From Solirhodobacter olei (GTDB lineage Bacteria > Pseudomonadota > Alphaproteobacteria > Rhodobacterales > Rhodobacteraceae): a stretch of 34,598 nucleotides of DNA. Location: the NCBI RefSeq assembly GCF_004010155.1, contig NZ_RRYH01000043.1, positions 1 to 34,598 of the forward strand. The letters are read 5' to 3'. Positions 5,157 through 34,598 of the stretch are shown piece by piece. Numbering within the stretch: the stretch's first letter is position 1; every line of letters starts with the position of its first letter. The translations under genes and the position numbers were made by a program. Under the pieces are notes generated by a model. The model was not told the DNA's origin. It saw nothing but the letters and a program-made list of their open reading frames with translations, and searched no databases.

Positions 5157-6337
5157 CTAGACGTTCAGACTGTCGAAAACCTCCCGACAGAACCGATCAA
5201 ACGTTTCAGTATCGTCCGAATCCGCGACCCAGACACGATCCAGTTCCAGTGCTCCGACCGGGACAATTCGTTCAGCGATGTCGGCCGGAGTAGTCTCGTC
5301 GATGCGACCACCTGCCCAATCATGAAAGGCTGAAGAATATCGAACGACCGCTCCGCTGGACGACAGGTCGATTGTTCCTCCTTCCGCAAAGAATGTCAGC
5401 CCGTCCCCCATCTCTTCCCCGATAAGCATGAGCTATTCTCCTAGACGGTGCTTCAGGATGGCGGTGAAGACGATCGCGGCGGAGAAGGTGAATTTGTCGA
5501 CAAGCAGACCAACCTGGCGATCCTCCACGCCCTCCGAGATCGCGTCGATCAAAGGCATGGTCCGAAGAAAGTCGCCGCCCGTATTTCCGCGAATGTCAAT
5601 AAGCAGGGGACTGCCCGGGCACGATCTTAAGAGTTCTGCCGCCTCGGCAACCGCACCCGAAAGTACAATTTTACTGGGATCGAAAAAACTCGGGAGGACC
5701 ATGAGCATCCCGGACGGTCCGAAGTCTTTGGTCTTCCCATAGGACTCGGGAAACCAGGATGCGTCGGCTTTTCCATGCTCGTATCGCGGGTAGAATGCGG
5801 ATGCGCGAACCAGACTTGCGGTATCGAGAGACAGTTTGCTGATCCGTCCCGTCTCAGTCCGGATCAGGTACTCGATTTTGTCGCCGCCCGAAGAAACTCC
5901 CAGGTGCAGCAATGCACTTGGCCAGGCGAAAAGGATTGGACCGATAACGCGTTTTCGTTGCAGTGTCCCCGCCAGATATTTCTCTGCGGATAGTTCGATT
6001 TCGCCTGCGGAAACGCCATTGACGGATATCAACTCGCGCCCGATCGCCTCTGAGAAATCTGACGTCGCATCAAGCAGGCGTGTAGCGGTGCCGATGGTAA
6101 CGAACCTCAGGGGGAGAACCAAAATGGCATCGTTTGGGATCAACCGTGTATGTCCGTTCCCAGGAAGTGCGAGAAGGCGCATCAGGGAAAACAGGAATCT
6201 TCCTTCGAGTTCGCAAGGGCACTCTGACGGGCCTCGCTTATGTGGCGATCCAATTCCTTGCGTCCGATCGATCGGAAGCTGGGATCGGTCGTAAGGACCG
6301 TTGCCACTATTCGCTCTAGGTCTTCGATCATCGACAT
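5157..6337 (-). pseudogene. S41-family (tail-specific) peptidase, broken by a frameshift and an amber stop
   Basis: Three collinear pieces make one gene. From ATG 6337 (directly after an in-frame TGA) a 51-residue N-terminal piece runs to a stop at 6182-6184. The next part continues in another frame through L-M-R-L-L-A-L-P-G-N-G-H-T-R-L, the usual S41 N-terminal landmark, to L-L-I-D-I-R-G-N-T-G-G-D and the catalytic-serine region D-K-F-T-F-S-A-A. It then meets TAG at 5433-5435. The same frame reopens at once with L-M-L-I-G-E-E-M-G-D-G-L-T-F-F-A-E-G-G, the usual S41 sequence after the active site, and ends at 5157. The frameshift lies at or near a C/T run around 6185-6191 and fits loss of one base. 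Restored, the protein would be about 390 residues. It is an apparent pseudogene unless these are sequencing errors. No signal peptide is seen on the N-terminal piece. Confidence 0.8.
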
Positions 6338-32154: not shown

Positions 32155-32184
32155 CATTCGTAATGATGGGGTCGGGGGTTCGAG
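32155..32184 (+). tRNA. 3'-half fragment of tRNA-Thr(CGT), cut by IS6
   Basis: The order is exactly that of a tRNA from the anticodon loop onward: 7-nt loop TTCGTAA (32157-32163, anticodon CGT), five-base 3' stem TGATG, five-base variable loop GGGTC, five-base T stem GGGGG, and T loop TTCGAG, where the IS begins. The 5' anticodon strand pairs only for its last two bases (CA), then fails, as expected at the crossover of an integration site in a tRNA gene. The acceptor 3' strand and CCA are missing beyond the IS. It is non-functional and best read as an old attachment-site half. Confidence 0.55.
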
Positions 32185-32983
32185 GGGATTGCCAACTTGC
32201 TCGTGGTCCGACGTTGGCGTAGGTGCCGAGGATGAATATTCCCGACACGATGCCGCGCCTGAAGGGCTATCGTTTTCCTCGCGCGATCGTGGCTTACGCG
32301 GTCTGGGCCTATCACCGGTTCGCGCTCAGTACCGGGGATGTCGAGGATTTGCTTGCCGAGCGCGGCGTGATCGTTAGCCGGCAAACCGTGCGGCAATGGG
32401 TGAACCGCTTCGGGAGCCACTTCGCCGCCTGCATCAGGCGCGACAGGCCGGCCGCCAGCGACAAGTGGCACCTCGACGAGGTCGTCGTCCCGATCGGCGG
32501 GGAGAAGTTCTGGTTGTGGCGAGCGGTCGATGTGATGGGCGATGTGCTCGACATCCTGGTACAGAAGCAGCGGAATGCGAAGGCGGCGAAGCGATTTCTG
32601 GTACGACTGATCGGCCGCTTCGGCACTCCGCGTGTCGTCGTCACCGACAAGCTGCGCAGCTATACCAGCCCGATCGGCCATCTCGCACCCGATGCGGATC
32701 ACCGCGCGCGCAAGGGGCTCAACAACCGCATCGAGGGATCGCACAGGTCGACCCGAAAGCGCGAGAAGATCATGGGGCGGTTCAACAGGCCCAGAGGTTC
32801 CTCGCCGCCCATGACCAGGTCGACACGCTCTTACGACCCCGCCGCTATCGTCTCTCCGCTTCCTCTTGGCGACACGCCAGATCCGATGCCTTCGATCTCT
32901 GGGCTATCTATGCCCTCGAAATGAGCGCCTGACGAACACCACTCAGGCCCATGCCGATTTCGGCCTGACAAGTTGGCAATCCC
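32185..32983 (+). mobile_element. IS6-family insertion sequence, left copy, 799 bp
   Basis: Terminal inverted repeats of 15 perfect bases, GGGATTGCCAACTTG at 32185-32199 and its complement at 32969-32983, bound one transposase reading frame. Size and organisation are those of IS6/IS26-type elements. The eight bases outside each end (32177-32184 and 32984-32991) do not match, so there is no target duplication; this fits replicative transposition, cointegrate resolution or a later deletion. The first 40 bases recur at the right end of the window in the same orientation. Confidence 0.9.
32232..32932 (+). pseudogene. IS6-family transposase, frameshifted near its C-terminus
   Basis: The N-terminal part (R-L-K-G-Y-R-F-P-R-A-I-V-A-Y-A-V-W-A-Y-H-R-F) and helix-turn-helix (about residues 35-60) are normal for IS6. 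The catalytic D-D-E residues are all present: W-H-L-D-E, V-V-T-D-K and N-N-R-I-E-G-S-H-R. After K-I-M-G-R-F the reading frame shifts near 32780-32790. The expected ending (Q-A-Q-R-F-L-A-A-H-D-Q-V ... F-D-L-W-A-I-Y) lies in another frame and stops at 32932, while the original frame runs on with unrelated sequence to 32924. A small deletion at the junction is likely. The start could be ATG 32232 or GTG 32223. It is probably inactive, although all catalytic residues precede the lesion. Confidence 0.85.
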
Positions 32984-33028
32984 GTCTAAACACTGACAGG
33001 CACGCCCTTTGGGCCTGCGCGGCAGCTT

Positions 33029-33238
33029 TCGTTGCAAGAGAGGTGCAACGATTTGTCATCCAGTTTGGATAATCCAGCATTTACAGCTATTTATTTGTTG
33101 CACGGCGTTTCCTGAATCGTTGCATGCGCCTTGGCGGCAAAAATCGTTGCAGAATCCTTGCAACGAAAGCTTGAGGGATATGGAAAAATGTTATTTTGTA
33201 GATAGATAATCGTTGTGAGCAATAAGGTTATCGTTGCA
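33029..33238. repeat. array of the octamer TCGTTGCA upstream of fic
   Basis: Perfect TCGTTGCA occurs at 33029-33036, 33117-33124, 33144-33151 and 33231-33238, and its complement TGCAACGA at 33044-33051 and 33159-33166. The first and third direct copies pair with the inverted copies at seven-base spacing, making two similar dyads. Near copies lie at 33096-33103 and 33210-33217. Two sites extend to ATCGTTGCATGC, the last reaching into the fic start codon. This is an operator-like array. The likely reader is the winged helix of the Fic protein or an unseen regulator (inference). Confidence 0.8.
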
Positions 33239-34530
33239 TGCCGTCCCCGGACCAACCCATTTTGGACTATATCGCAGACCATCCCGGTGCAGGCCGGGCA
33301 GCGATCCGGCGTGCGGTAGCACCGGAAGATGATCCCAGCACGGTGTGGCGGACGCTCAGGCGGCTCGTTGACGAGGGGCGGCTTGAAGTCTCGGGAAAGG
33401 GCCGGGCGACCGGCTACACCATTGCCGGGTCAGCCGTGGTGCGGGCGCACTTGAGCACGCCCTACAACCGCCGTCCGCCCGTCGCCTACCGCAAGGACTT
33501 CCTCGATGCCTATGTGCCGGGCAAGACCTACTATCTTACCGAGGCTGACCGGGCGCGCTTACTGGAAGCGGGGCGGCCTGCGGGCGGGCCGATTGCTGCC
33601 GGAACCTACGCACGGCGTATCCTGGAGCAGTTGCTCGTAGACCTGTCATGGGCCTCCTCGCGGATGGAGGGCAACACCTATGACATCCTGCAAACCGAGC
33701 GCCTGATCCGCTTTGGCGAGGAAGCTGCGGGCAAGGACCGCAAAGAAGCGCTGATGATCCTGAACCACAAGGAGGCGATCCAGTACGTTGTCGATAATCT
33801 CGATGACATAACCTTGCGGCGCGCCGACCTGTTTGCCATCCATGCCCTACTGTCGGACGGCCTGCTCGGCGATCCGGGCATGGCCGGTCGCCTTCGCGTC
33901 GGCGCGGTCGGGATTTCGCACTCCAGCTACAAGCCTCTGGATGACGCCGTCACCATTGCCGAGGAGTTCGACATCCTGATCGCCAAGGCGGCAGAGATCG
34001 CCGATCCATTCGAGCAGTCATTCTTCCTGCTCGTCCATATCCCGTATCTGCAAGCCTTCATCGACATCAACAAACGGACATCGCGGGTCGCCTCCAACGT
34101 ACCGCTGCTCAAGGCCGATCTTGCCCCCATGTCGTTCCTGACCATGGATGATGCCAATTATATCGACGGGCTGATCGGCATCTACGAGTTGAACAATGTC
34201 GCGCTGCTGCGCGAGGTCTATATCGACAGCTATCTCGCCTCGGCGGAGAAATACCGCGTGCTGCGCGCCGAGGTCGAAACCCCGGAAAAGGCGGCGCTCG
34301 CCTACCGCGAATTTGTTCGCGAGGCCGTCCGGCGCTGCGTGCTGGAGTTCAAGGCCTTCCGGGCGGACGAGGTTCTGGCCATGGCCACCGAAGCCGCGAT
34401 CCCGGAGGAGGATCGGGACGCTGTGGTCGCCTATGTTGGCGAACAGGTGCGCGGTCTCCATGAAGGCAATGTCATCCGCTACCGGCTCCGCCCGGCGGAC
34501 CTCGATGGCCTCCTGCAGGAACAGACGTAA
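33238..34530 (+). CDS. Fic family protein with N-terminal winged helix-turn-helix
   Basis: A 430-residue protein. Residues about 5-65 form a winged helix (I-L-D-Y-I-A-D-H-P-G-A-G-R-A-A-I-R-R-A-V, then T-V-W-R-T-L-R-R-L-V-D-E-G-R-L and a Gly-rich wing). The inhibitory motif S-S-R-M-E-G-N is at 140-146 (S-x-x-x-E-G), N-terminal to the Fic core, as in class II Fic enzymes. The active-site motif is H267-I-P-Y-L-Q-A-F-I-D276-I-N278-K-R280-T-S-R, a variant of H-x-F-x-D/E-G-N-G/K-R with seven residues inserted after the His and Gly replaced; related D-x-N-K-R-T Fic proteins exist. AMP transfer from ATP to a target is the family reaction; the target is unknown. ATG 33238 lies within an octamer repeat, and the gene ends TAATG into the next start. 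Confidence 0.9.
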   Translation: MPSPDQPILDYIADHPGAGRAAIRRAVAPEDDPSTVWRTLRRLVDEGRLEVSGKGRATGYTIAGSAVVRAHLSTPYNRRPPVAYRKDFLDAYVPGKTYYLTEADRARLLEAGRPAGGPIAAGTYARRILEQLLVDLSWASSRMEGNTYDILQTERLIRFGEEAAGKDRKEALMILNHKEAIQYVVDNLDDITLRRADLFAIHALLSDGLLGDPGMAGRLRVGAVGISHSSYKPLDDAVTIAEEFDILIAKAAEIADPFEQSFFLLVHIPYLQAFIDINKRTSRVASNVPLLKADLAPMSFLTMDDANYIDGLIGIYELNNVALLREVYIDSYLASAEKYRVLRAEVETPEKAALAYREFVREAVRRCVLEFKAFRADEVLAMATEAAIPEEDRDAVVAYVGEQVRGLHEGNVIRYRLRPADLDGLLQEQT

Positions 34531-34598
34531 TGGCAGAAAGCTTCTCGGACCGGTACGGGGGATTGCCAACTTGCTCGTGGTCCGACGTTGGCGTAGGT
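34530..34598 (+). CDS. gene following fic, cut after nine codons by IS6
   Basis: ATG 34530 overlaps the fic stop (TAATG), so the two were translationally coupled. Only M-A-E-S-F-S-D-R-Y is native; the IS terminus starts at 34559 and the frame then reads into it. Proteins that open with F-S-[ED]-R-[HY]-G are often AbiJ N-terminal-domain (HEPN-type abortive-infection) proteins, which would fit a defence partner for Fic, but nine residues cannot prove it. The rest of the gene is lost or lies beyond the second IS. Confidence 0.4.
   Translation, partial: MAESFSDRYGGLPTCSWSDVGVG
34559..34598 (+). mobile_element. left end of a second, directly repeated IS6 copy
   Basis: The 40 bases from 34559, plus the preceding G, are identical to the start of the first copy (32184-32224), including the 15-base terminal repeat. 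The window ends inside it. Together the two copies bracket the fic segment (32984-34558) in direct orientation. Confidence 0.9.

Follow-up and report, generated by a model that had tools for sequence, protein, structure and literature searches.

The stretch of DNA analysed here, a 34,598-nucleotide contig of Solirhodobacter olei (NZ_RRYH01000043.1; hereafter, the window), carries towards its end a fic gene, and directly in front of that gene lies an array of the octamer TCGTTGCA. Six exact copies in both orientations lie within 210 bp (33029–33238); four of them pair into two dyads, each with a spacer of seven nucleotides (N7), and the last copy stops on base 33238, which is the A of the fic ATG. 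Could such an array be the operator of the very protein whose gene it precedes? We argue below that it probably is, and that the protein would be a repressor built on a Fic fold that lacks its catalytic histidine.

The octamer array and its conservation

Across the whole window, TCGTTGCA is present in seven exact copies, a number that none of 100 shuffles of the window reached (shuffle mean 0.96). The seventh copy stands alone at 5955–5962, distant from the array, and is within the chance expectation set by that mean. Furthermore, an 8-mer was present at least six times in 3 of 5000 first-order Markov resamples of the 210-bp region, and when the contig was scanned in 210-bp segments at 10-base steps, the one other word to reach six copies was GCAGCAGC, a triplet run. 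The GC content of the array region is 41%, compared with 64% for the contig. These results agree with a preliminary description of the locus, which had reported the six copies with their orientations, positions and overlap with the A of the ATG and had held chance to be a poor explanation.

The layout given in that description, six copies and two N7 dyads, is correct but incomplete. Comparison with relatives revealed two further, degenerate sites in the window (TTGTTGCA at 33095 and TCGTTGTG at 33210), and the order of the sites is that of a forward–reverse–forward–forward (F-R-F-F) module, present twice at a distance of about 114 bp. In the close loci, the distal module occupies offsets −207/−192/−141/−121 and the proximal module −93/−78/−28/−7 (Table 1).

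Table 1. Array sites, genes and mobile elements in the window. Conservation counts refer to 46 close loci, the window included, and to at most one mismatch (≤1) unless another limit is given.
Feature	Position	Strand	Basis or remark
Distal dyad left arm, octamer (−209)	33029..33036	+	exact TCGTTGCA; −207F in 39/46
Distal dyad right arm, octamer (−194)	33044..33051	−	exact; −192R in 39/46
Degenerate octamer TTGTTGCA (−143)	33095..33102	+	1 mismatch; −141F in 35/46
Octamer site (−121)	33117..33124	+	exact; −121F in just 10/46
Proximal dyad left arm, octamer (−94)	33144..33151	+	exact; −93F in 46/46
Proximal dyad right arm, octamer (−79)	33159..33166	−	exact; −78R in 44/46
Degenerate octamer TCGTTGTG (−28)	33210..33217	+	2 mismatches; −28F in 37/46 (≤2 mismatches, 42/46)
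Octamer (−7), seven bases before start plus A of ATG	33231..33238	+	exact; −7F in 46/46
Candidate −10 hexamer GATAAT	33205..33210	+	consensus scan 9/12; TGGAAA 18 nt upstream; abuts −28 site
Pseudo-fic gene, 430 amino acids: winged helix, Fic fold, helical C-terminal part	33238..34530	+	Pfam Fic 1e-6; structure model
N-terminal winged helix, residues 6–62 (H-H-H-E-E)	33253..33423	+	model secondary structure
Inhibitory-helix motif SSRMEGN, residues 140–146	33655..33675	+	alignments A1, A3
Gln272 codon (catalytic His position of Fic)	34051..34053	+	alignment to FICD
Downstream frame, first ~9 codons, AbiJ-NTD4-like	34530..34557	+	comparison with L015/L017 gene start
IS6-family insertion sequence (IS), upstream of array, inverted repeat GGGATTGCCAACTTG	32184..32983	+	IS6 transposase 8.8e-58
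Second, direct IS copy, start only	34558..34598	+	41-nt perfect repeat of 32184–32224

A search of genome contigs with the window protein gave 45 relatives (L-numbers below denote fic-homologue loci and G-numbers genomes). The close loci (n = 47) are the window, two plasmids and at least 43 relatives whose frame is long; L059, with a 24-amino-acid frame, was excluded from the site counts, and L032, with 26 bp of upstream sequence, from the 46 loci of Table 1. We observed the same octamer, most often in the form TCGTTTCA, upstream of the relatives' genes, and its distances from the start match those in the window. Among the close loci, few have the fourth site of the distal module (−121F). The background match rate at the same tolerance was 0.64% at 1880 random in-gene places. 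Similarly, exact sites in the close loci number 19.3 per kb in the 230 bp upstream, compared with 0.13 within genes and 0.91 in the 400 bp downstream. About 43 close-locus proteins fall into 16 clusters at <90% identity over the first 300 residues. Three loci (L045, L048, L051) have the proximal module only, and L047 keeps two of its seven scored sites. The preliminary description had tied its reading to conservation of the octamer upstream of orthologous fic genes, and such conservation, at fixed distances, is what the 46 close loci display.

Some octamers also occur behind fic. An exact copy lies 64–65 bp past the fic stop in 14 loci (L022, L024, L061 and others), between fic and sngA, within a small conserved CATTGC...GCAATG dyad. 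We considered it as a regulatory site of sngA, but L032, L055 and L057 retain the dyad although the sequence after it is different; it may instead belong to a transcript end. An exact reverse octamer lies 95 bp past the stop in L020, L035, L040, L041, L042, L049 and L051, and one alignment of these with three other loci gave no clear shared stretch around it. Decay of fic does occur, since the homologues in L059 and L008/L013 (G020:C37) have broken reading frames.

Are the dyads confined to this locus? The 4.78-Mb, 122-contig genome holds two exact TCGTTGCA-N5–9-TGCAACGA dyads, both in this array. We also searched the genomes of 12 relatives (for 12 of the 45 loci), which makes 13 with the window's own; these genome-wide counts cover exact dyads and tandem pairs. 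Exact dyads were found in 10 of the 12 relatives' genomes, at 14 places, and all 14, when located by contig coordinates, are upstream of a fic homologue; none was found in G534 or G537. The tandem-pair pattern gave eight matches in 8 of the 13 genomes, again all upstream of fic (8/8), and its exact form was not found in the other five, which include the window's own.

In the divergent members (~30–45% identity), arrays of other words take the place of TCGTTGCA. We scored the best repeated 8-mer in the 250 bp upstream plus the first 20 bp of the gene: 20 of 33 divergent loci scored at least 4.0, compared with 11 of 292 upstream regions of fic-neighbouring genes drawn from 51 loci (Fisher 8e-16, a value overstated by the relatedness of the loci). 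The array words include TGTCAACC in L006 (seven exact copies), AATGGACA in L075 (nine sites), TTGCGCCT or TACGCGCA types in L064, L079 and L080, and TGGCGCGA in L065. In a set from viral contigs, 11 of 16 members reached the same score, three of them (L125–L127) with the same array; L129 of this set has the word TATGCGCA. Shorter His-to-Gln Fic frames (348–356 amino acids) with AAGCTCAA-type arrays also occur on viral contigs (L130, L133, L134). Shared words grow with the identity of the winged helices: mean cross hits are 0.28 at 20–30% identity, 3.86 at 40–60% and 5.02 above 60% (Mantel p 0.0005, 37 members). Because the subfamilies differ in their octamer word but have a similar layout, sequence alone suffices to read the putative operator, which makes binding directly testable.

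By consensus scan (one found, compared with a shuffle mean of 0.6), we infer a promoter within the proximal module. At the place of its putative −10 hexamer, the close loci carry ATAATC in 26 of 46 and TAATC in 42 of 46; a Shine–Dalgarno-like word stands within 14 nt ahead of the start in 10 of 46. Since GATAAT abuts the −28 site, occupancy of that site would cover the −10 element and the transcript start, and occupancy of the −7 site the first codon. DNA occupancy works on transcription and not on ribosome access to the start codon of the mRNA, and on this general ground the earlier proposal that it would also block start-codon access is not supported.

A Fic fold with glutamine for the catalytic histidine

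The window protein matches PF02661 (Fic) with 29.9 bits against a cut-off of 24, the sole Pfam family above its cut-off, and has no NCBIfam match. A Pfam scan to E 1 returned Fic, SelB-wing_2, Penicillinase_R and AXE1, with no WYL domain among them. The structure model built on alignment A3 has a predicted local distance difference test score (pLDDT) of 87.1 and a predicted template-modelling score (pTM) of 0.72; it supersedes a model from close relatives only, with a pLDDT of 52.7. It consists of an N-terminal winged helix (helix–helix–helix–strand–strand), as had been proposed earlier, followed by a core and a C-terminal part that are both helical. The top matches of the model in the PDB are FICD structures (Foldseek 1.3e-7).

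In the alignment to FICD, Gln272 falls on the catalytic His, and the histidine of the catalytic motif HxFx[D/E]GN[G/K]R is thus missing. This Gln is invariant in the overlapping sets A1 (26/26), A2 (20/20) and A3 (28/28). It is also found in every motif that could be read among the more distant members: 26 of 26 from the 33 divergent loci, two of which are truncated, and 15 of 15 from the 16 viral-contig members. On the other hand, A1 and A3 show no variation at the pocket residues Asp276, Asn278, Arg280 and Arg283, nor at Ser140, Ser141, Glu144, Gly145 and Asn146 of the inhibitory helix, where SSRMEGN has the class II Fic pattern [S/T]xxxE[G/N] ahead of the Fic motif. Because Gln272 replaces the catalytic His, the Fic domain is probably inactive, and the window protein is probably not an active Fic enzyme. 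An active Fic toxin is likewise unlikely, given a Gln for the catalytic His in every motif read. Matches to the protein occur in 13 of 398 evenly drawn Pseudomonadota genomes at 1e-30 and in 10 of 147 near-relative genomes at 0.001, the window's own included in both counts.

Genes behind fic and the weighing of explanations

In the closest relatives (L015 and L017, 95% identity), the fic stop overlaps the start of an AbiJ-NTD4 gene (AbiJ_NTD4, 2e-24 and 1.7e-25; that of L015 also matches the PADLOC candidate PDC-S32). The window has the same junction: the ATG of the downstream frame overlaps the fic stop (TAATG), and the AbiJ-like frame is interrupted by the second IS6-type copy at 34558. Different defence genes stand behind other homologues. 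Shango-type families (named by PADLOC on L024) lie within 5.5 kb of fic in 15 of 51 loci, and in 12 of these the sngA frame follows fic at 117 bp. A SIR2-APAZ short-Argonaute partner occurs in L064, L085 and L116 (in L064 and L116 with a 75-bp gap or a frame overlap between it and fic), a nuclease-APAZ partner in L132, and an IetS-like protease ~0.9 kb behind fic in L079.

A downstream scan was made of 88 loci, of which four (L031, L055, L056, L057) had too little sequence, leaving 84; the window, L118 (no fic frame found), L086, L126, L127 and L135 lay outside the 88. The first downstream gene was defined as lying on the same strand, having at least 120 amino acids and starting within 600 bp, and neighbours were called mechanically. 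Such a gene was present in 44 of the 84 loci, and 19 of the 44 matched a defence model at 1e-10: 13 SngA, three SIR2-APAZ, one REase-APAZ and two PDC-S32/AbiJ. Co-location with diverse defence systems is thus found in 19 of 44 cases. The preliminary description spoke of fic; with these neighbours, the likely target of control includes a downstream defence gene and not fic alone.

Four first downstream same-strand genes are candidates for undescribed defence genes. Those of L109, L112 and L114 have no Pfam or PADLOC match, and that of L134 has no PADLOC match. Their arrays differ in clarity, being clear in L109 (= L070) and L134 and weak or under the threshold in L112 (= L073) and L114 (= L078, where 1 of 30 shuffles scored as high). 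If the interpretation set out below is true, genes behind such arrays that lack a defence-model match are candidates for new anti-phage systems. Within the window, a link to the MADS system was considered and rejected: the frame 29991–32066 matches mad3/mad8, yet its Pfam assignment is an ABC transporter ATPase plus branched-chain amino acid permease, and the PADLOC match was taken as general ATPase similarity.

From the comparative evidence, we think it likely that the array is the self-operator of a pseudo-Fic winged-helix repressor that ancestrally controlled a defence gene. Protein dimers would occupy the dyads, further occupancy at the single sites would extend over the −10 region and the transcript start, and the winged-helix protein would thereby repress its own promoter. 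The Fic fold without its catalytic His would probably not act as an AMPylase but sense a ligand or signal and serve in oligomerisation; because the pocket residues and the inhibitory helix are retained, we infer that the pocket may serve as the sensor. Ancestrally, the fic promoter would also have driven the gene behind fic, which in the window is the AbiJ-NTD4-like frame cut by the IS. Such a repressor–defence cassette would be silent in healthy cells and freed once an infection signal reaches the Fic domain. The autorepressed Fic switch of the preliminary description is supported in part: the array stays with the gene while the neighbours differ, but the domain lacks the catalytic His.

A wider reading, which we advance tentatively, is that the window protein belongs to a large unnamed family of defence-operon repressors with a Fic-fold sensor, each with a subfamily-specific octamer array of its own before exchangeable anti-phage genes. 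In such a family, the His would be fixed as Gln, the inhibitory helix kept as a switch, and the N-terminal winged helix would bind the arrays; the exchangeable genes would be of the AbiJ, Shango, SIR2 or nuclease short-Argonaute partner and IetS-like protease types. What such repressors sense during infection could be a nucleotide or an event akin to AMPylation.

Several observations weigh against the self-operator reading and its link to defence. No same-strand first gene was found in 40 of the 84 loci, and 25 of the 44 first genes have no defence match at 1e-10. Of the 19 that do, 13 are Shango genes in related plasmid-like loci, and the defence link comes mostly from this one Shango-bearing group, with few other cases. 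Moreover, the 77 nearest upstream genes match 41 PADLOC families, with one member each in the top 25 of the 41; because upstream genes match defence models too, the whole surroundings of fic are defence-rich. These upstream defence genes are scattered, with no recurrent one. As for the arrays, 13 of the 33 divergent and 5 of the 16 viral-contig members do not reach a score of 4.0, perhaps in part through uncertain starts, start codons having been guessed in unannotated loci. The word-sharing test took in 37 members (nine close and 28 of 49 divergent), mostly with clear arrays, and word sharing correlated with identity in the Fic domain (rho 0.47), the recognition helix (0.43) and the winged helix (0.37). 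Because Fic-domain identity tracks the words at least as well, co-evolution of the words with the winged helix is not separated from common descent by this test. Finally, eight sites in mixed orientation fit no single simple dimer, and both binding and expression are predictions from comparison.

The mobile surroundings of the gene bear on a different explanation. The IS6-type element upstream of the array has inverted arms at 32171–32199 and 32969–32997, the contig (34598 bases) ends inside the second IS copy, and the IS-flanked array and fic could be movable as a pseudo-compound transposon. Genes of ScpB, DUF1403 and integrase types recur upstream of fic (L022, L030, L061 and others), with replication genes nearby, and many fic copies thus sit beside plasmid replication modules. 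Could fic then be an autoregulated passenger of mobile elements, associated with defence only by hitch-hiking in defence islands? Many loci do have replication, ScpB, relaxase, integrase or transposase genes next to them, 65 of the 84 have no same-strand defence match behind fic (40 of them with no gene to scan), and defence matches are scattered upstream as well. On the other hand, the stop–start overlap with AbiJ-NTD4, the gap or overlap with SIR2-APAZ and the ~117 bp to sngA are what operons would look like, and four different types of defence gene lie on the same side and strand. On balance, we regard the passenger explanation as unlikely.

Less probable still is control of fic by an unlinked host regulator, other than the Fic protein, that binds the octamers. 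The overlap with the candidate promoter would suit any repressor, and binding by the Fic protein is itself a prediction from sequence. However, our search of 13 genomes found exact dyads and tandem pairs nowhere but upstream of fic, and the same architecture recurs with other words in many divergent members in different hosts, which one regulator would not readily explain.

We judge it very improbable that the dyads are RNA hairpins of an attenuator or terminator in the leader. Both dyads did score as terminator-like (two found, compared with a shuffle mean of 0.4); however, one of them does so solely on the opposite strand, the single direct copies have no inverted partner, and the word recurs at fixed steps in forward and reverse orientation alike. 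Last and least credible is a plasmid iteron, a partition site or transposon-end repeats abutting fic by accident, for although short direct and inverted repeats at ~20-bp steps resemble such arrays, and several loci lie near replication or partition genes, the array tracks fic and not its differing neighbours, has one site fixed on the fic start in 46 of 46 loci and is also present before the fic homologue of L070 (score 4.0), whose contig measures 6.2 Mb.

Comparison with known systems

The self-operator reading has one of its nearest counterparts in CccR of Yersinia pseudotuberculosis, a Fic protein described as repressing its own promoter through palindromes (PMC9755527). Both proteins join a Fic domain and a DNA-binding domain in one chain and have the class II inhibitory motif, and the self-repression through palindromic boxes described for CccR is what we predict here (PMC9755527). 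In contrast, the passages on CccR describe a C-terminal helix–turn–helix, a catalytic His, AMPylation of FtsZ and a role as a secreted effector, whereas the window protein has an N-terminal winged helix and a Gln for the His (PMC9755527). The CccR operator is a single 46-nt element of 10-bp repeats with a 26-bp spacer, compared with seven to eight octamers in two modules here, and defence genes often stand behind fic here, unlike in the description of CccR (PMC9755527). The preliminary description knew of no Fic system with this operator design; given autorepression through palindromes in CccR, that claim can hold only for the operator layout and the domain order.

His-to-Gln Fic proteins were recognised in a Fic/Doc survey of 2015, reportedly by Khater and Mohanty. 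Clade D2 of that survey comprises 45 bacterial sequences whose function was left open, and it shares with the window protein the replacement of the catalytic His by Gln; its motif is of the type Qx[FY]x[DE][GV]NKR (PMC4454073). In the window, the motif reads QAFIDINKR, with Ile where the D2 pattern has [GV], and relatives' motifs of the QPFEDVNKR and QPFADGNKR types fit that pattern. Clade D2 proteins are usually single-domain, whereas the window protein adds a winged helix and a C-terminal part; the survey passages mention no DNA-binding domain or operator for the clade (PMC4454073). Among the matches listed from the open-access literature, the titles and abstract openings describe no His-less winged-helix Fic repressor and no array of this kind. 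If our reading is true, it would provide a function for His-to-Gln Fic proteins, which the survey passages left without one (PMC4454073).

Fic domains and defence have been brought together before in Sofic, a Fic-domain protein in anti-phage defence; it is a toxic AMPylating protein that the source passages do not describe as a DNA-binding regulator (PMC12249575). The word Fic is not found in the main text of the Shango paper (PMC10250203). Repressors of defence operons are also known: RptR is a small transcriptional regulator whose site, TAGCTA, spans 6 bp, and its abstract mentions no Fic domain (PMC12255303), and CapS acts through wide and narrow palindromes in a CapK/CapS pair with a kinase-regulated STAS domain, in a paper whose main text does not contain the word Fic (PMC13373217). 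Another is the BrxR family, a repressor encoded with diverse phage defence systems, which likewise has an inverted-repeat operator at its own promoter and is a proposed ligand sensor (PMC9122601). BrxR senses through a WYL domain and has paired 11-bp repeats with a 5-bp spacer, according to the passages that describe it, whereas the window protein has a Fic fold (PMC9122601). If true, the self-operator reading would add a sensor fold to the known repressors of defence operons.
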